NCBI GenBank assembly: GCA_036399055.1
Contig: DASWNX010000034.1
Location: forward strand, 1 to 50,779
DNA from: Jatrophihabitans sp.
GTDB taxonomy: Bacteria; Actinomycetota; Actinomycetes; Mycobacteriales; Jatrophihabitantaceae
Length of the DNA stretch: 50,779 nt
Direction: 5' to 3'
Under the pieces are notes generated by a model, which was not told the DNA's origin, did no database searches, and was given only the letters and a program-made list of their open reading frames with translations. This document shows positions 5,845 to 48,960 of this stretch, piece by piece. Each line of letters starts with the position of its first letter. Position 1 is the stretch's first letter. The translations under genes and the position numbers were made by a program.

Positions 5845-6773
5845 GCCGCCACCGCCGCAGTGCCCGCGATCTCGGTCGAGCGGTAGTCGACGGTTTCACG
5901 GGTCAGGTGCATGAACGCTTCCTCCAGTGAGGCTTGCCGGACGGACAACTCGAAAATCGGCACATGGGCCTGCCACGCGATGGCGCCGACGCGTTCGGCC
6001 GTCAGGCCGTCGATCCGCAGCACGTCGGACTGCTCCCTGGTCACGGTGATGTCCGGAAACGGCAGCAGATCCCGTAGCCGAGCCGCCTCCGGCGTGCGAA
6101 CCGTGACGGAGTTCTGTGAGGCGCGGGCGACGAATTCGGCGACCGTGGTGTCAGCGATGAGGCGGCCACGGCCGATGACCACCAACCGGGTGGCGGTGAG
6201 GGCCATCTCGCTCATCAGGTGAGATGACACGAACACCGTGTGTCCGTCGGCGGCCAGAGCCTTGAGCATGGTGCGCATCCACAGCACGCCCTCCGGGTCC
6301 AGGCCGTTGGCCGGCTCGTCGAGAACCACCGTCCTGGGATTGCCCAGCAGCGCCGAGGCCACTCCCAGCCGCTGGCCCATGCCGAGTGAGAACCCGCCGA
6401 CCCGCTTTCGGGCCACCTCGCGCAGGCCGACGAGCTCGATCACCTCATCCACCCGCTGCCGGCCGATGCCGTTGGTCTGGGCCAGCGCGAGCAGGTGATT
6501 GCGGGCCGACCGACCGGTGTGCACCGCTTTGGCTTCCAGCAGGACGCCGAGTTCGGCCATCGGTGTGGTCGCGGACCGGTAGTCGCGGCCGTTGACCGCG
6601 ACCCGGCCGGCGCTCGGCTGGTCCAGGCCCGCGATCATCCGCATCGTGGTGGACTTTCCGGCGCCGTTCGGGCCGAGGAACCCGGTGACGGTTGCGGGCT
6701 GCACCACGAAACTCAACCCGGCCACCGCCAGCTTGTCCCCGTAACGCTTGCTCAGGTTCTCTACCTCGATCAT
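5841..6773 (-). CDS. ABC transporter ATP-binding protein
   Basis: A 310-residue ATPase that powers the adjoining ABC-2 permease. It has Walker A GPNGAGKSTTMR near residue 35, signature FSLGMGQRLGVA, Walker B TVVLDEPANGLD and the H-loop SSHLMSE. The C-terminal 90 residues are the extension typical of drug or lantibiotic-type ABC-2 ATPases (LTREXVDYRS-like end). The start at 6773 begins MIEVENLSKRYGD, the standard N-terminus, with AGGCAAG upstream as ribosome-binding site. The gene is divergent from the TetR gene; the 111-bp gap holds three operator copies. Confidence 0.93.
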   Translation of the reverse strand: MIEVENLSKRYGDKLAVAGLSFVVQPATVTGFLGPNGAGKSTTMRMIAGLDQPSAGRVAVNGRDYRSATTPMAELGVLLEAKAVHTGRSARNHLLALAQTNGIGRQRVDEVIELVGLREVARKRVGGFSLGMGQRLGVASALLGNPRTVVLDEPANGLDPEGVLWMRTMLKALAADGHTVFVSSHLMSEMALTATRLVVIGRGRLIADTTVAEFVARASQNSVTVRTPEAARLRDLLPFPDITVTREQSDVLRIDGLTAERVGAIAWQAHVPIFELSVRQASLEEAFMHLTRETVDYRSTEIAGTAAVAA

Positions 6774-44298: not shown

Positions 44299-45669
44299 TC
44301 AGTCGCCGCCGCCTCCACCGCCTCCGTCACCGCCGCCGCCTCCGTCACCGCCGCCGCCTCCGTCGCCGCCGCCGTCGCCGCCGCCGCTGTCATCGCCCGA
44401 TCCGCTGCCGCCGCTGTGGTCGCCGCCCGGTCGGCGCGGCGGGCGCTGACGCGCCCGTCCGACGCGCAGCCGAGCCGCGGGCAGCAGCACCGCGTCAGCG
44501 GTGATCAGCGATGCGATCCCGCCGTCGTGCAGCGAGCCGAGCAGCACGGCGTCCTCGACGATCCACAGCTGTGGCATAAGCCGCTCAGCGGACCCGAGGA
44601 CTTCACCCGCCTCGCTCTCGACGTTGGCGCCGGCAGCCGCGTGCTTGGGCGGGGGCAGCGCCGCAGACAGCGCCAAGCTGGCGATGGGGCGCTCGGCGGC
44701 CCGTGCGTAAGCGCTGCCCAGGGCGGGAAGGATCAGGGCGTGGCCCCTCTCGTCCAGGCAAGTCCTGACCCGCAGCACGGGGTGATCGCCCGAGCGCAAC
44801 GCTGCCAGGCCACGGCGCCACCGCCAGTTGTGCAGCAGCGAGAAGAACGCCAGCAGGAAGCAGCCCGCGCCGGCGCTCTGCCAGCCGGTCGAATCCCGCG
44901 GCTCGGCCACCAGCCGGACCCAGCGCGGGTCCTCGGGGTCCAGCAGCAACGGGGTGCTCGAGTGCAACGGATAAGGCGCAGTGTCGATCAGGTCGATCGT
45001 GAGCTCGCCGGCCTCGACAGCGGAGCTGTTGACCTCGAGCTTGATGTGCTCATCGCGCTGGACCTCGGTGATGCTGGCCTGGACCCGGACGGCACGGTCC
45101 AGATGAGCCTGCTCGGTGGCCACCTCGTGGCCGTACCAGGAGAAAAGTCCGATGCCCACCAGCACCAGCGCGCCGGCGAGGGCCAGCTGCCCGGCGCTCA
45201 GGTGACGGGCATCCTTCGACGCACCCGCGACGCTGCCGGCCGTGGCCCGCAGGCCGCCCGAGGCCGCAGCCGCGATCCGCCGCTGCTCGGCCGCGCCGTG
45301 CGCCAACCGCACCGCGACCAGCGCGCACAGCAGGCCATGCAGCCCGAACGCCCAACGGGCGCCAGTCACGTCGTCGTAGCGAAGCTCGGCGAGCGCGAAG
45401 GCCACCCCTGCCAGGCAGCCGAAAACCGGCATCCACCACAGCAGCACCGGCGTCGCCAGGCACACCACGACCCACAGGGCGAAGGTGGAGTCGGGCCCGC
45501 AGATAGACGGATCCTGCGGCGTGCACCGGGCGGTGTCGTTGACCACCGCCACCACGACCGCCAGCGCCCACAGCGAGGGGAGCGCGACGCTGGTGACCCA
45601 GCGGGGCAGCCCGGCGCGAATCCAGCGATCCGCGTCGGCAGGGGTGAACGGTAGGGCAGTGGGCAGCAC
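44299..45669 (-). CDS. Multi-pass membrane protein with Gly/Asp-rich tail
   Basis: A 456-residue protein I do not recognise. Membrane segments are likely at about residues 25-44, 63-80, 83-95, 107-120, 162-178 and 270-288. Between them lies an external beta-rich segment (about 185-260) with VRLVAEPRDSTGW. The C-terminal cytoplasmic part (290-410) has RTCLDERGHALILPALGSAY and ends in about 45 residues of GGGGDGGG-like repeats, encoded by GCCGCC(GTC) microsatellite DNA. Such tails occur in some actinobacterial TPM/DUF2207-like membrane proteins, but the rest does not allow a family call. A decayed hutU end lies just upstream. Confidence 0.7.
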   Translation of the reverse strand: MLPTALPFTPADADRWIRAGLPRWVTSVALPSLWALAVVVAVVNDTARCTPQDPSICGPDSTFALWVVVCLATPVLLWWMPVFGCLAGVAFALAELRYDDVTGARWAFGLHGLLCALVAVRLAHGAAEQRRIAAAASGGLRATAGSVAGASKDARHLSAGQLALAGALVLVGIGLFSWYGHEVATEQAHLDRAVRVQASITEVQRDEHIKLEVNSSAVEAGELTIDLIDTAPYPLHSSTPLLLDPEDPRWVRLVAEPRDSTGWQSAGAGCFLLAFFSLLHNWRWRRGLAALRSGDHPVLRVRTCLDERGHALILPALGSAYARAAERPIASLALSAALPPPKHAAAGANVESEAGEVLGSAERLMPQLWIVEDAVLLGSLHDGGIASLITADAVLLPAARLRVGRARQRPPRRPGGDHSGGSGSGDDSGGGDGGGDGGGGGDGGGGGDGGGGGGGD

Positions 45670-45846: not shown

Positions 45847-46497
45847 TTTTAGGCAATCGTCTAGAGGGAAGAGGTTAAAGGACTCCGCCATTTAATTGCC
45901 CCAGTTGGTAACCGCCCCGTTCCGCAGGAAATAGCGGTTGACTGTCTGAGTAATAGGCGGGCCTGAAGTTTGGGGCTCCCTCTATAGGCGAACTGTCTAT
46001 AATTACACCCCTGTACTTCCCAAAGTAGCCTTGGCCTTGCTGCTACGGCACCCGGAAGTTTGTCTGAATTGGCTGCTCCGGGCGCTTCGAGCCTGTTCAA
46101 GCTCTCCCCGCCATCAGCCTCTCGGGACAATTGAGACCGGGATAAGTCCTAACTGGATTTGGGCAATGCCGGGTTTGGCGAAACGCAACCTGGCATACTC
46201 CGACGAGCACTCGCGCTGCTGGTCAACCCGACCCATGTCCTGGCCCTGACGGCCGGTCAGTTCAGTAACGGTCCCAGGCGGCGCTAGTCGAGACAACACA
46301 CCCCGTTCGCCCTACGCCGCAAAGGCGAAACCCCCATGCTGCACCATCCGAGCGAAGCGCATCTGAGCGCGTCAGACAGAAGGTACGTGTGTACTGCCAC
46401 GCTGGAGTGTCAACTAGTGGTGACAGATCCGAGTATGACGGGTACGGTCTGTGACGGTCGGTACGGGGGGATTGCGATGAGAAGCGGCTTGATCGGC
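45847..46497. other. AT-richer stretch without a clear gene
   Basis: About 650 bp, noticeably less GC-rich than the surroundings. No open frame has convincing codon use. On the minus strand around 45890-46035 two frames give protein-like fragments (GQGYFGKYRGVIIDSSPIEG, then PAYYSDSQ in one frame, TVNRYFLRNGAVTNWGN in the next), which could be a frameshifted relic. Several AT-rich words (TATAATTACA type) could be promoters. Otherwise I see nothing that I can name. Confidence 0.4.
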
Positions 46498-46530
46498 GGC
46501 AGGGCGCGGCCTTGTGAGCCGCGCCCTGCC
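46498..46530 (-). terminator. 13-bp perfect hairpin terminator after the ultrashort genes
   Basis: The arms 46498-46510 and 46518-46530 (GGCAGGGCGCGGC and complement) pair perfectly with a 7-base loop. It lies 20 bp downstream of the stop of the MLRHWDWS gene on the minus strand. Confidence 0.8.
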
Positions 46531-46549
46531 ACGGATCGTGTACGTAGGT

Positions 46550-46576
46550 TTACGACCAGTCCCAGTGACGCAGCAT
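46550..46576 (-). CDS. Ultrashort gene encoding MLRHWDWS
   Basis: Nine codons including stop. A strong ribosome-binding site GGAGGGGG lies 8 bases before ATG, and a perfect terminator hairpin follows. The WDW core matches the WHW core of the other three ultrashort genes in this island. It is the last of three such genes in a row on the minus strand. The role is unknown; a signal peptide, a precursor of a modified peptide, or a leader peptide are possible. Its frame is also open upstream, but only the short start has a ribosome-binding site at the proper place. Confidence 0.5.
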   Translation of the reverse strand: MLRHWDWS

Positions 46577-46659
46577 CAATAACACCCCCTCCGACAGTTG
46601 GAGTGCGCGTCCGCGTTCCCTCGGATCGCAGCCGGGCACCCCGTCTTTTTGCGGTGCAC

Positions 46660-46689
46660 TTAGGCGACCGGCCAGTGCCAGTTGTTCAT
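46660..46689 (-). CDS. Ultrashort gene encoding MNNWHWPVA
   Basis: Ten codons including stop. The first six residues are the same as in the MNNWHWG gene at 48762 although codon 2 differs silently (AAC against AAT), as expected for a sequence under protein selection. The C-terminus is extended to PVA. GGCGGGG lies 7 bases before ATG, a weaker ribosome-binding site than in the others. It is 83 bp downstream of the MNSWHWG gene's terminator arm region and 84 bp upstream of the MLRHWDWS gene. Confidence 0.5.
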   Translation of the reverse strand: MNNWHWPVA

Positions 46690-46735
46690 GATGAAACCCC
46701 GCCGTCCAGGCTTGATGACCGAAGCTCAGCAGGAG

Positions 46736-46763
46736 GCCCGAGACAGTGTCAGCTGTCCCGGGC
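46736..46763 (-). terminator. Hairpin after the MNSWHWG gene
   Basis: The arms 46736-46746 and 46753-46763 (GCCCGAGACAG and near-complement, one G-U pair) with a 6-base loop. The same hairpin sequence, little changed, follows the MNNWHWG gene at 48712-48745, so gene and terminator were copied together. Confidence 0.7.
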
Positions 46764-46784
46764 ACCCCGTTTCTGCGAGCTTGT

Positions 46785-46808
46785 TTAACCCCAGTGCCAG
46801 CTATTCAT
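46785..46808 (-). CDS. Ultrashort gene encoding MNSWHWG
   Basis: Eight codons including stop. GGGAGGAGGGG lies 7 bases before ATG, one of the strongest ribosome-binding sites in the window. The block from terminator through gene to the upstream 21-bp word (at 46828-46848) is a near copy of the block around the MNNWHWG gene at 48762, with one amino-acid change (Asn3 to Ser). It is divergent from the GGDEF-like membrane gene that starts only 40 bp away, so its promoter must overlap that gene's start. Confidence 0.55.
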   Translation of the reverse strand: MNSWHWG

Positions 46809-46848
46809 AACGAAACCCCTCCTCCCGTCCGACGACAGGCGCGCGAAA

Positions 46849-47835
46849 ATGACCCTTGCGATTGAGTACTTCGCGCTCTTGGTATTGCTGAGTCTCGCTT
46901 ATTCGACCTCTTTAAGGCGAGTAGAGCGGCTACGACGCGCCGTTACTCTTGACCGCGTTCCCGATATGACCGGCATCTGGACTTTCGCGGGAGCAGTGGT
47001 GCTCCCGTTGCCGCTCGTAGCGGCGCTCGTAATAATCGCCGCACTTGGTGAGTGGCCGTCGCGGAAGGTGCATCAGGGTGGCCGGCCGGTCAAATACGCC
47101 GTCAGCATTGCGGGGTTGGCCAGCGCATATCTGGCTGCGGCCTTTGTGGTGAGCCACGTCCCAGGGCCAAGTGGCGTCGCGCTAGCAGTGCCCACTGTCT
47201 GCCTGCTGAACGTTGGATACGTCGCGGCGCTGTACTACATCTCGGGGGGCCGCAACGGGTTGCGGATGTTCCTGGACCCGCGCCTGCATTTGATCGAGGT
47301 CAGCACCCAGGGATTGGGTGCAGTAGTGGGTTTGGCCATGCTCTACTGGCACCCGCTGCTCGCGGTGGGCGCGTTGGTGCTGCTGTACGGCTTGCACCTC
47401 GCCTCGCTCCGTCACGCCGTCGACGTCACCGAATCGTTCGATTCCGTCACGGGCCTGTGGTCCGAAGAGGCGTGGATGGTGCAGGCTCAGCAGAGGCTGC
47501 ATGACGTGTACGGTTCCGTCGCCCTGTTCATGATCGATCCGGATGAGGCGGGTCAGGAGGTGCGCATTCTGCAGACCATCGAGTCGGGTCTGCAACCCTC
47601 GGACCTGCTGGGCCGTTACGGCTCCCGGCAGATTCTGGTGCTGATCCCGGTCGGCCTGCCTGAGGGCGGGCCGTTCTTGGCCACCGGGTTCCGCAAGGAC
47701 CTGGCCGCTGCCGGGGTGCGCGCGGCGCTGGGCTGCGCGACCACAGCCGACGCCGAGCTGGAGGGCCTGCTGATCGAGGCGATGTCTGACCTGATGGGCC
47801 GGCGCGACGCGGCCGGCATCACCCGGAACTGGTAG
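46849..47835 (+). CDS. Membrane protein with degenerate GGDEF domain
   Basis: A 328-residue protein with about six membrane segments (residues 4-18, 44-67, 82-104, 110-132, 150-165, 168-184) and a C-terminal GGDEF-like domain from about 195. DSVTGLWSEEAWMVQAQQRL and VALFMIDPDEAG match the GGDEF fold (D.LTGL.NR, ..DIDhF), but the active-site loop reads RYGSRQILVLIP where RYGGDEF is normal, so it is unlikely to make cyclic di-GMP. It may bind a nucleotide or act as a receptor through its membrane part. It is divergent from the MNSWHWG gene. No ribosome-binding site is visible. Confidence 0.75.
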   Translation: MTLAIEYFALLVLLSLAYSTSLRRVERLRRAVTLDRVPDMTGIWTFAGAVVLPLPLVAALVIIAALGEWPSRKVHQGGRPVKYAVSIAGLASAYLAAAFVVSHVPGPSGVALAVPTVCLLNVGYVAALYYISGGRNGLRMFLDPRLHLIEVSTQGLGAVVGLAMLYWHPLLAVGALVLLYGLHLASLRHAVDVTESFDSVTGLWSEEAWMVQAQQRLHDVYGSVALFMIDPDEAGQEVRILQTIESGLQPSDLLGRYGSRQILVLIPVGLPEGGPFLATGFRKDLAAAGVRAALGCATTADAELEGLLIEAMSDLMGRRDAAGITRNW

Positions 47836-47883
47836 CAGGGGCAGGACTAGCTGTCCTACCTCCCGGCCGGCCACCTGCCGTGG

Positions 47884-48444
47884 CTAGCTGCCTTCTAATC
47901 CTTGAACGGCTGATGCCAGCGTGCTTTGGACTAAGGCCAGGACCGCCGCGAAGCCGGCGAGCCCCTCGGCCTGCGCCGCCTGGGTCCGGTCTCCCAGCTC
48001 GGAGACCAGGCCGGTGACTTGGCGCCGCTCGGCGGTGCTGAACGTGGAGATGTCGATCGGCGTCGGCGCAGGCACGGCCGCAGGCGCGGTGAACGCGCGA
48101 ATGAGCTCTGCCACCGCTTGCGCCTGCTCGATCGTCAGCGTCCCGGTGGAGGCCGGCAGCATCGAGGCCAGCAGCGATCGGTCCTCTGAGACGTCGATCT
48201 GGAACTGGGTGGCGTAGCTCAGCACCACCTCCCGGGCGTCCACGCCCAGAGCGCTCGCGGTGCCTTCGATGACCTCACGAGACTTCGGCCAACCCCGCAC
48301 CTCGCCCTTGCTGATCTTGCCGAACGTCTGATAAGGCACCGAGCCGCCGGAGCGCTGCTCAAGCTGGCGCAGGGTCAAGCCGGTGGCGAGCTTCTGACGG
48401 ACGAGCTCGGCGATGGGCACATGTCCGGAGGCTGAGTCAACCAC
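47884..48444 (-). CDS. XRE-type helix-turn-helix regulator
   Basis: A 186-residue regulator. The N-terminal 75 residues form an HTH: VPIAELVRQKLATGLTLRQL, then GSVPYQTFGKISKGEVRGWP with SREVIEGTASALGVDAREVV. The C-terminal 100 residues (SMLPASTGTLTIEQAQAVAE onward) are of unknown type and predicted helical, and could sense a ligand. The GTG start at 48444 is preferred because GAGAGGGG lies about 11 bases upstream; a start at 48546 would add 34 residues through an operator-like palindrome. It lies downstream of the MNNWHWG gene on the same strand, beyond its terminator. Confidence 0.8.
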   Translation of the reverse strand: MVDSASGHVPIAELVRQKLATGLTLRQLEQRSGGSVPYQTFGKISKGEVRGWPKSREVIEGTASALGVDAREVVLSYATQFQIDVSEDRSLLASMLPASTGTLTIEQAQAVAELIRAFTAPAAVPAPTPIDISTFSTAERRQVTGLVSELGDRTQAAQAEGLAGFAAVLALVQSTLASAVQGLEGS

Positions 48445-48512
48445 TGCGTTATCGGCCCCTCTCGGTGGGAAACGGCTGCGTGACTGCGGCCTCGCCAAGC
48501 GGCGCCTGGCGT

Positions 48513-48526
48513 CTACCGAAAGGTAG
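48513..48526. promoter_or_regulatory. Palindrome upstream of the XRE gene
   Basis: CTACC-GAAA-GGTAG, perfect 5-bp arms, 69 bp before the GTG. GTCTACC recurs near 48590. It may be an operator for the XRE protein. Confidence 0.4.
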
Positions 48527-48706
48527 AGGTAGCCGAACCATCCCATGCCCCGGTTCTCAGAACTACACGCCGGTAATTGTGATCATGAGGTCTACCAACA
48601 GCGGCAAGGGTCGGCAGGACGCGGCACCCGGACCCTGGCGCCAGCGGAGCTGTGCGGTGTCATCTCGCAGAGGGGGACACGGGGGTCACATCTGAAAGCC
48701 ATGCAT

Positions 48707-48745
48707 AAAAAGGTGCCCGAGACAGTCTCAGCCGTCCCGGGCACC
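48707..48745 (-). terminator. Strong intrinsic terminator after the MNNWHWG gene
   Basis: A 12-bp stem (48712-48723 with 48734-48745, one G-U pair), 10-base loop and a run of five T on the transcript side (48707-48711). It is the most classical Rho-independent terminator in the window and lies 16 bases after the stop of an 8-codon gene, which supports a separate tiny transcript. Confidence 0.88.
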
Positions 48746-48761
48746 CACTTGTGGAGCGCGT

Positions 48762-48785
48762 TTAACCCCAGTGCCAGTTATTCAT
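48762..48785 (-). CDS. Ultrashort gene encoding MNNWHWG
   Basis: Eight codons including stop. GGAGGGAGAGGGG lies 7 bases before ATG and a strong terminator follows, so a short transcript of perhaps 100-150 bases would carry only this peptide. Near copies at 46785 and 46660 keep the WHW core. It lies 119 bp downstream of the hutU stop on the same strand and 318 bp upstream of the XRE gene. A heptapeptide gene has precedent in mccA of microcin C and pentapeptide genes in biarylitide clusters, but no modifying enzyme is seen here. Confidence 0.6.
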   Translation of the reverse strand: MNNWHWG

Positions 48786-48821
48786 AGCCAAGCCCCTCTC
48801 CCTCCGACGACAGGCGCGCGA

Positions 48822-48960
48822 AAGCCGGCGCAGGCGCGGCTAACGCGGGACGGCCCGAGACTAACCAACCCTGCGCGGTCGCGCGCCAGGTCGCCGAAAA
48901 GGCCTACTGCTCCCGCATCGGGACCCGCACCCCGCGCTCGGCGGCGACCTCGTCGGCGCG
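48822..48960. repeat. Right-hand copy of the hutU-end duplication
   Basis: The native hutU 3' end and its flank, repeated in decayed form at 45707-45846. The two copies are direct repeats about 3.1 kb apart and border the island. Confidence 0.7.

Follow-up and report, generated by a model that had tools for sequence, protein, structure and literature searches.

Very short genes for very small peptides are known from several bacterial systems. Microcin C combines mccA, a heptapeptide gene, with MccC, an exporter of the major facilitator superfamily (MFS), and the actinobacterial biarylitides arise from pentapeptide precursor genes accompanied by a P450. Membrane-sensor diguanylate cyclases, for their part, couple MASE-type domains to GGDEF. 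The locus described here recalls each of these in part. It lies in a 50,779-nucleotide stretch of Jatrophihabitans sp. (assembly GCA_036399055.1, contig DASWNX010000034.1, positions 1 to 50,779; hereafter the window) that carries four minus-strand mini-genes beside a gene for a degenerate GGDEF membrane protein. We find that such mini-genes form a large, overlooked and apparently undescribed actinobacterial family of 6-9-codon peptide genes located beside a membrane signalling enzyme. Because genes of this length are below normal annotation limits, the family would be missed by standard pipelines. Taken together, the arrays and their neighbours suggest an overlooked peptide-signalling system.

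In Streptococcus, the SIP-RopB system has an ultrasmall open reading frame (ORF) of 24 bp that yields a mature peptide without a leader; in the cases described for the Firmicutes leaderless communication peptide (LCP) class the peptide gene is divergent from its receptor gene and peptide sequences are species-specific, and at the L. reuteri locus transporter genes lie convergent beyond the peptide gene (PMC10518010). Our loci resemble those covered by that account in having an ultrasmall leaderless ORF, here of 6-9 codons with a ribosome-binding site (RBS) and a mature product that we infer, and in placing a receptor gene divergent and a transporter gene convergent, as in at least one Firmicutes locus. 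They differ in that the receptor there is a cytosolic RopB-type (RRNPP) protein and here a membrane GGDEF protein; that the LCP peptides are described as highly hydrophobic, whereas ours are, by reading, mostly polar with one Trp (RNKSW, RDNTWT, NNHGW); and that ours form tandem arrays of up to ~21 copies in actinobacteria rather than Firmicutes. The words "tandem" and "Actinobacteria" are absent from the main text of PMC10518010. In view of these four differences, we do not file the array system as an LCP member.

The other parallels are likewise partial. As in microcin C, a very small peptide has a gene to itself and an MFS gene often lies nearby, but here the genes form tandem arrays with a cyclase as the constant partner, and no adenylating enzyme was recognised among the neighbour clusters present in at least 20 of 50 loci (no ThiF or MccB profile was run). 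Biarylitides share the ultrashort actinobacterial precursor gene, but no P450 heme motif was found in the flanks examined at 50 array loci and the window, and many of our peptides have a single aromatic residue. Membrane-sensor cyclases share the canonical GGDEF domain, intact as GGEEF or GGDEF in most relatives here, but our sensor has no Pfam match in the 10 proteins scanned and is associated with mini-gene arrays and an MFS gene. The ammonium transporter-diguanylate cyclase of PDB entry 8qj3 also joins a transporter to a GGDEF output domain; ours is an MFS transporter, is fused in six retrieved loci only, and has the peptide gene between the two or opposite the linker.

Mini-gene arrays and their neighbours

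In related actinobacteria, 1 to about 21 head-to-tail mini-genes, each with its own RBS, often precede a membrane GGDEF gene in divergent orientation. In most of them the peptide is particular to the locus and keeps one Trp (RNKSW, RNHNW, RDNTWT, NNWSW, TVVNWS), repeated along the array (NNHGW five times, NNWSW-type five, TVVNWS seven, NSNSW seven, NNVTWR-type four). An initial annotation of the window had supposed that its mini-genes represent a family overlooked elsewhere, and related arrays do occur widely in actinobacteria. Its choice of TGG-CAC-TGG, or W-x-W, as the defining feature is not supported: the family mostly fixes one Trp, W-x-W is a local variant, and even the single Trp is not universal (MRNKDF, MATREG, MGGIEY, MRNRDT). 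Many of the GGDEF-like relatives are full-length membrane diguanylate cyclases, with an N-terminal domain of ~230 residues containing about six hydrophobic segments. This sensor domain had no Pfam match in the 10 proteins scanned, seven of which match PF00990 (E 1e-43 to 6e-38); the three that do not, from L083, L086 and L015 (L numbers denote individual loci), belong to degenerate subfamilies. The motif D..T[GKR][LM].N is found in 32 of 54 frames, and all 32 carry GGEEF (30) or GGDEF (2).

Named genomes were scanned with an alignment of the membrane domain, and the best 80 of 394 relatives were examined. One of the clearest examples belongs to a completely sequenced named strain, Pseudonocardia dioxanivorans CB1190 (NC_015312.1), which makes the system directly testable: 21 tandem RNKSW-type genes follow one another with a period of ~61 bp, and an extra RNKSWH copy stands apart, closer to the cyclase. 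The array region of CB1190 had no match in a plasmid collection. Other arrays comprise 16 copies of RNHSWT in P. thermophila, 13 of RNHNW in P. alaniniphila and 7 of RNRTWI in P. nigra, and four records, three of Kibdelosporangium and one bearing the label Rhodococcus rhodnii, have single copies such as MRGKDW. Across the class, 66 of 246 genomes gave a sensor-domain match at E <= 1e-10, and the loci examined there added arrays such as RDTTWS, RDNTWT and RDNNWN; in a phylum-wide sample the domain was found only in the genome of the window (1 of 198, at E <= 1e-15). A literature search by title found no description of such arrays with a cyclase and an MFS gene, bioRxiv and most subscription papers being outside its scope. 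At four Pseudonocardiales loci (L131, L135, L138, L156) three to four cyclase frames stand in tandem in the same direction, and in L135 and L138 a later cyclase of the series has a different single mini-gene, MRNKDWN.

The position of the arrays was tested with a detector requiring tandem mini-ORFs of 5-10 codons, an RBS and peptides at least 60% identical, applied to the window and 127 fetched loci (1.03 Mb). It returned 62 arrays, reduced to 52 once places fetched twice and nested sub-arrays were removed. All but one of these stand divergently upstream of a cyclase-family gene (49 by script and two more when measured from the start of the sensor domain, 51 of 52), the sole array elsewhere being in L173, and three passes over first-order Markov-shuffled sequence produced no arrays. 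The loci had been chosen for holding a cyclase, and this test therefore concerns position within loci. For 187 of the 204 cyclases the upstream sequence reached 1200 nt or more. Their divergent 1.5 kb holds one or more Trp mini-ORFs in 107 cases, as against 25 of 1186 control stretches from the same loci; two or more with distinct stops occur in 68 cases and in none of the 1186. In six whole Pseudonocardia genomes, 68 of the 93 matches to the pattern RTGCGNAAYMRNNNNTGG fall at the cyclase locus (19, 16, 13, 7, 7 and 6) and the other 25 are scattered elsewhere; the reversed pattern has 12 matches in all.

Raw counts, by contrast, do not discriminate. The enrichment check that the initial annotation had proposed came out flat: in the genome of the window ATG-N6-TGG-CAY-TGG and its reversed control have 5 matches each. 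A looser pattern with GGGG upstream gave 18 against 5 in that genome and 296 against 437 over the other 60 genomes. All five of those ATG-N6-TGG-CAY-TGG matches adjoin an XRE-like gene and a GGDEF-like membrane gene. It is only the ORF-level and positional tests (RBS, closed mini-ORF and position) that are informative.

A second partner is the MFS gene. When neighbours were clustered at 50 array loci, the cyclase and the MFS protein, with antisense frames, gave the only clusters present in at least 20 loci; clusters in 5-11 loci were not given identities. PF07690 scored above cut-off in all seven MFS-type proteins scanned. By profile comparison the MFS protein resembles exporters, namely the H+ antiporter TIGR00900 (E-values from 2e-28 to 9e-40 in each of the four MFS-bearing proteins compared) and EntS, below the curated cut-offs. 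At 33 of 48 arrays with enough flank (four more have short flanks) the gene shares the strand of the cyclase and stands convergent to the array, just past it; its open frame ends beyond the start of the last mini-gene, at a median distance of 81 nt. Trp mini-ORFs accompany 56 of 72 MFS-adjacent cyclases compared with 37 of 76 without MFS (p 3e-4, leaving out 33 second-in-tandem and 23 short-flank cyclases). Among the 16 MFS-adjacent cyclases that have none, 13 have a non-Trp mini-ORF behind a purine-rich RBS (MRNKDF, ANKDT, MGGIEY and MRTREG, for example, some of them from near-identical sister loci). Where Amycolatopsis-type loci yielded no MFS gene (L165, L167, L169-L171, L173, L175, L177, L179, L185, L186), mini-ORFs of these kinds were not found either.

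At six loci from Amycolatopsis and Kibdelosporangium (L141, L146, L193, L195, L196, L201) the MFS frame runs stop-free into the cyclase. These unusual MFS-cyclase open frames, three of which were scanned with Pfam, have 887-933 codons and a poorly conserved linker, and in five of the six a mini-ORF lies on the opposite strand of the linker (MTNKDW in L146, AGKEW in L196, MRNKDF in L195 and L201, ANKDT in L141); the sixth, L193, was checked for Trp mini-ORFs only.

There is strong evidence that the encoded peptide is under selection. In 210 pairs of adjacent copies, 162 of the 3318 sites in the codons that follow the start are different (4.9%), compared with 43% of the 14 nt before the start, 48% of the 15 nt after the stop and 50% of the region from -30 to -17, in an ungapped comparison in which indels inflate the flank figures. 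ATG and GTG starts are exchanged in 59 of the 210 pairs. When every distinct unit in 51 arrays is counted once, codons that differ by a single base do so synonymously in 27 cases and nonsynonymously in 20, against an expected synonymous share of about 16% (excess p 7e-11); 19 of the 51 arrays contain a synonymous variant, with AGC or TCC for serine in adjacent units. The 75 nt after the last copy fold with z below -2 in 12 of 48 arrays (median -0.85), and those after the first copy in none of 51 (median 0.62). Arrays tend to end in hairpins and first copies do not, as expected if arrays are separate transcripts. Codon conservation, synonymous bias, start exchange and terminal folding together point to selection on a translated product, and not on an RNA or a DNA repeat. 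A tandem DNA repeat without coding function was rejected: codons are kept and flanks are not, and the differences show synonymous bias.

The same data bear on two explanations in which the peptide is not a signal. Mini-genes that diverge from the cyclase gene and in many cases converge on the MFS gene, some with hairpins 3' of them, could be cis-acting leader peptides or attenuators, or belong to an antisense transcript that regulates the MFS or cyclase gene, the peptide itself being irrelevant. Against this, no recurring family was recognised downstream on the array strand, where the recurrent plus-strand frames look antisense to the MFS gene; spacers are unconserved while codons are kept, with synonymous bias; and the mini-gene regions scanned gave no Rfam match. 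We consider it improbable. A trp leader or attenuator in particular was rejected, with neighbours that are XRE/GGDEF-like or MFS/cyclase genes rather than trp biosynthesis genes, and the same lack of Rfam matches. ORFs this short can also cause peptidyl-tRNA drop-off, and toxic minigenes that sequester tRNA in this form, their arrays serving as a translational brake, would fit the many mini-ORFs that end in a Trp codon. However, the final codon is not constant (W, T, S, I, G, N, P, F, R) and locus-specific internal residues are kept, and we give this explanation very little credence.

Peptide diversity and the proposed signalling mechanism

Peptide identity tracks the membrane sensor domain, and not GGDEF or MFS, which supports but does not prove a pairing of the two. 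Dereplication of 94 loci left 77, over which Mantel tests give peptide distance a correlation of 0.565 with the distance between sensor domains and of 0.437 with that between GGDEF domains. As partial correlations these become 0.40 (sensor; reached by 0 of 2000 permutations) and -0.05 (GGDEF). With MFS included (45 loci of 57), the partial values are 0.38 for the sensor, -0.02 for GGDEF and -0.06 for MFS. On contig C33 of the window's own genome, paralogous cyclases differ in their peptide (NNHGW versus LDNWRWP), and both types recur in the sister species G002, as NNHGW/SNHGW and as LYNWRWP/LKNWRWP.

We propose that the leaderless peptides, of about 6-9 residues, are what the membrane sensor of the adjacent GGDEF protein specifically binds, a reading to which we give even odds. 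The tandem array, once expressed, would make the leaderless peptide, with copy number as a dosage device; the adjoining MFS protein would probably export it; and the membrane domain of the cyclase would perceive it and then set cyclic di-GMP (c-di-GMP). The initial annotation had envisaged signals, small modified products or leader peptides, and the peptides are best read as a signal or as exported products. If true, the system would link a gene-encoded peptide directly to c-di-GMP, add a leaderless peptide-signalling class for actinobacteria, and offer a large set of natural peptide-receptor pairs whose specificity is built in. More tentatively, and with slightly less than even confidence, these loci might embody an unseen actinobacterial language, used from cell to cell or in self-sensing, in which arrayed peptides have dedicated MFS export and a cognate cyclase, and of which the window would hold a dead receptor with a peptide-like ...RNW tail and a phage-type repressor.

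An alternative to export is that free peptide, in amounts that follow array translation, stays in the cell and acts on the cyclase, or on the XRE protein, from the cytosolic side while the MFS protein moves other cargo or partners the sensing. The peptides have no leader sequences, the window has mini-genes and no MFS match, and 37 cyclases with a Trp mini-ORF have no MFS gene within reach, although three of them (L142, L154, L166) were misfiled owing to long arrays; moreover, a transporter-cyclase fusion is known in the PDB, in the ammonium transporter 8qj3 (a profile match). The MFS association and the read-through MFS-cyclase frames argue against this alternative, and the scanned MFS relatives are exporter-like (TIGR00900 and EntS, below curated cut-offs). 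Intracellular action seems to us unlikely on balance.

The peptides might instead be precursors of small modified natural products that are exported by the MFS protein, with the cyclase regulating production. Their length and MFS partner recall the mccA/mccC pair, and they are short and end near a Trp. Yet only the cyclase and MFS families cluster in at least 20 of the 50 loci, peptide diversity follows the cyclase sensor and not the MFS protein, and no P450 heme motif is present in the few kb of flank examined at the 50 array loci and the window, consistent with the earlier remark that no P450 enzyme is here. We think such a product distinctly unlikely. A P450-crosslinked, biarylitide-type peptide was rejected as a candidate with the heme motif at 0 of these 51 loci, and the radical-SAM expression matched at 10 of the 51, in ORFs on assorted strands, apparently by chance.

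Several points weigh against our proposal that the peptides are ligands of the sensor. Judged by hydropathy, the external loops of the sensor are all short. The convergent MFS gene is absent at 15 of the 48 testable arrays, among them that of L173 and those of L107 and L109, whose MFS gene stands across the cyclase; nor did an MFS gene match anywhere in the window. At 80 of the 187 cyclases there is no Trp mini-ORF: part of these are second genes of tandem pairs, have non-Trp mini-ORFs or have no MFS gene, and some are unexplained, such as L213, which does have one. Because Mantel tests do not fully remove shared ancestry, receptor-ligand pairing is supported and not proven by them; the GGDEF domain is possibly a noisier clock in these tests, and the loci used have a Trp peptide and intact GGDEF only, which places the branch of the window outside. 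Finally, in L019, a sister copy of the window's module, the XRE-like gene (5923-6324) has an in-frame TGA and there is no mini-ORF; this is apparently a decaying copy.

The window and its branch of the family

The four minus-strand mini-genes reported for the window are all present, each with a G-rich RBS that ends 7-8 nt 5' of its ATG. They encode MNNWHWG (48762-48785, RBS about 48805-48793), MNSWHWG (46785-46808, RBS about 46827-46816), MNNWHWPVA (46660-46689, the identical peptide also being found beside a module on contig C33) and MLRHWDWS (46550-46576, with relatives MLRHWEWP, MLRQWEWP, MLRNWDWS and MSRHWGWP at sister modules). The reported minus-strand hairpins were recovered as well: one with a T run, terminator-like, 3' of the first gene (48711-48746, z -4.9), one without a T run 3' of the second (46736-46767, z -5.4), which is 94% identical to its counterpart at 48715-48746, and one 3' of the gene at 46550 that closes the cluster (46491-46537, z -6.9). 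The region 3' of the gene at 46660 has no hairpin worth mention (folding z -1.2). The two heptapeptide copies are one cassette duplicated, with three matching pieces of 87-96% identity that include the minus-strand upstream pieces 46825-46848 and 48800-48823 (a sequence match, 96% identical); as recent duplicates, they are not independent. An Rfam scan of the mini-gene regions found one tRNA only and no mini-gene match.

Divergent from the mini-genes, on the plus strand, lies the gene for a membrane protein with a degenerate GGDEF domain, a pseudo-diguanylate cyclase (46849-47835) whose C-terminus is ...GITRNW, and tail-to-tail with it on the minus strand an XRE/phage-repressor-like gene (47884-48546) that matches phrog_12831, a transcriptional repressor, at E 3.9e-25. 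In the pseudo-cyclase RFGGEEF has become RYGSRQ, the signature now reading YGSRQ, and the ND..GH..GD block is missing; cyclase activity is for these reasons not expected. The protein has no Pfam match, PF00990 included, and no GG(D/E)EF signature. The XRE-like protein, likewise without a match in Pfam or NCBIfam, falls with a phage repressor family rather than with the RopB clan of receptors, and its single match in the PDB, at E 0.18, is unconvincing.

The same tail-to-tail arrangement of XRE-like and pseudo-cyclase genes is kept in 8 of 8 modules found, four in the genome of the window and two in each of two sister genomes of the genus. The XRE-like gene has 8 strong matches in 3 of 61 genomes searched, all of the same genus, and one weak match elsewhere. 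The initial annotation had guessed at a link of the mini-genes to XRE or GGDEF-like neighbours; the GGDEF-like gene is indeed the core of the system, and the XRE gene is a local addition (3 of 61 genomes). Judged from its genes, the window is a derived branch that has lost the GGDEF catalytic motif and gained a repressor-like XRE gene, and for these two reasons the peptide signal in this lineage would probably be read out as transcriptional control instead.

A terminal Trp is found in each of ten proteins of the degenerate GGDEF subfamily (at 47815-47832 in the window, and in L015-L021, L082 and L086). Their C-termini, ITRNW, VNRNW, VNRSW, VHHTW, ISARW and VSVRW, resemble the canonical peptides RNKxW, and by this resemblance the tail of the pseudo-cyclase may be a tethered mimic of the peptide. 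The three degenerate proteins of L083, L087 and L090, which are more distantly related, do not end in Trp.

The peptides of this branch take the forms MNNWHW and MLRHWDW. Those encoded at the XRE/GGDEF-like modules are MNNWHWPVA, MSNWNWPVA, MTSWHWPAA, MLRHWEWP, MLRQWEWP, MLRNWDWS, MLRNWHWG, MTRHWDWD, MSRHWGWP, MLRSWEW and MRHWEW. Four widely spaced variants lie on the minus strand of L021 (MLRNWDWS at 1365-1339, VRHWNCS at 1035-1012, MRHWEW at 447-427 and MRHSDWS at 42-19) and may be a degrading or diversifying array. In the sister module on contig C33, a 35-codon ORF starting MHHWEWW lies between two W-x-W mini-genes (L015, 3654-3547, minus strand). Beyond the mini-gene cluster of the window, a minus-strand gene of 456 codons (44299-45669), which like the XRE-like and GGDEF-like genes has no Pfam or NCBIfam match, encodes a probable membrane protein with a low-complexity tail of Gly, Asp and Ser.

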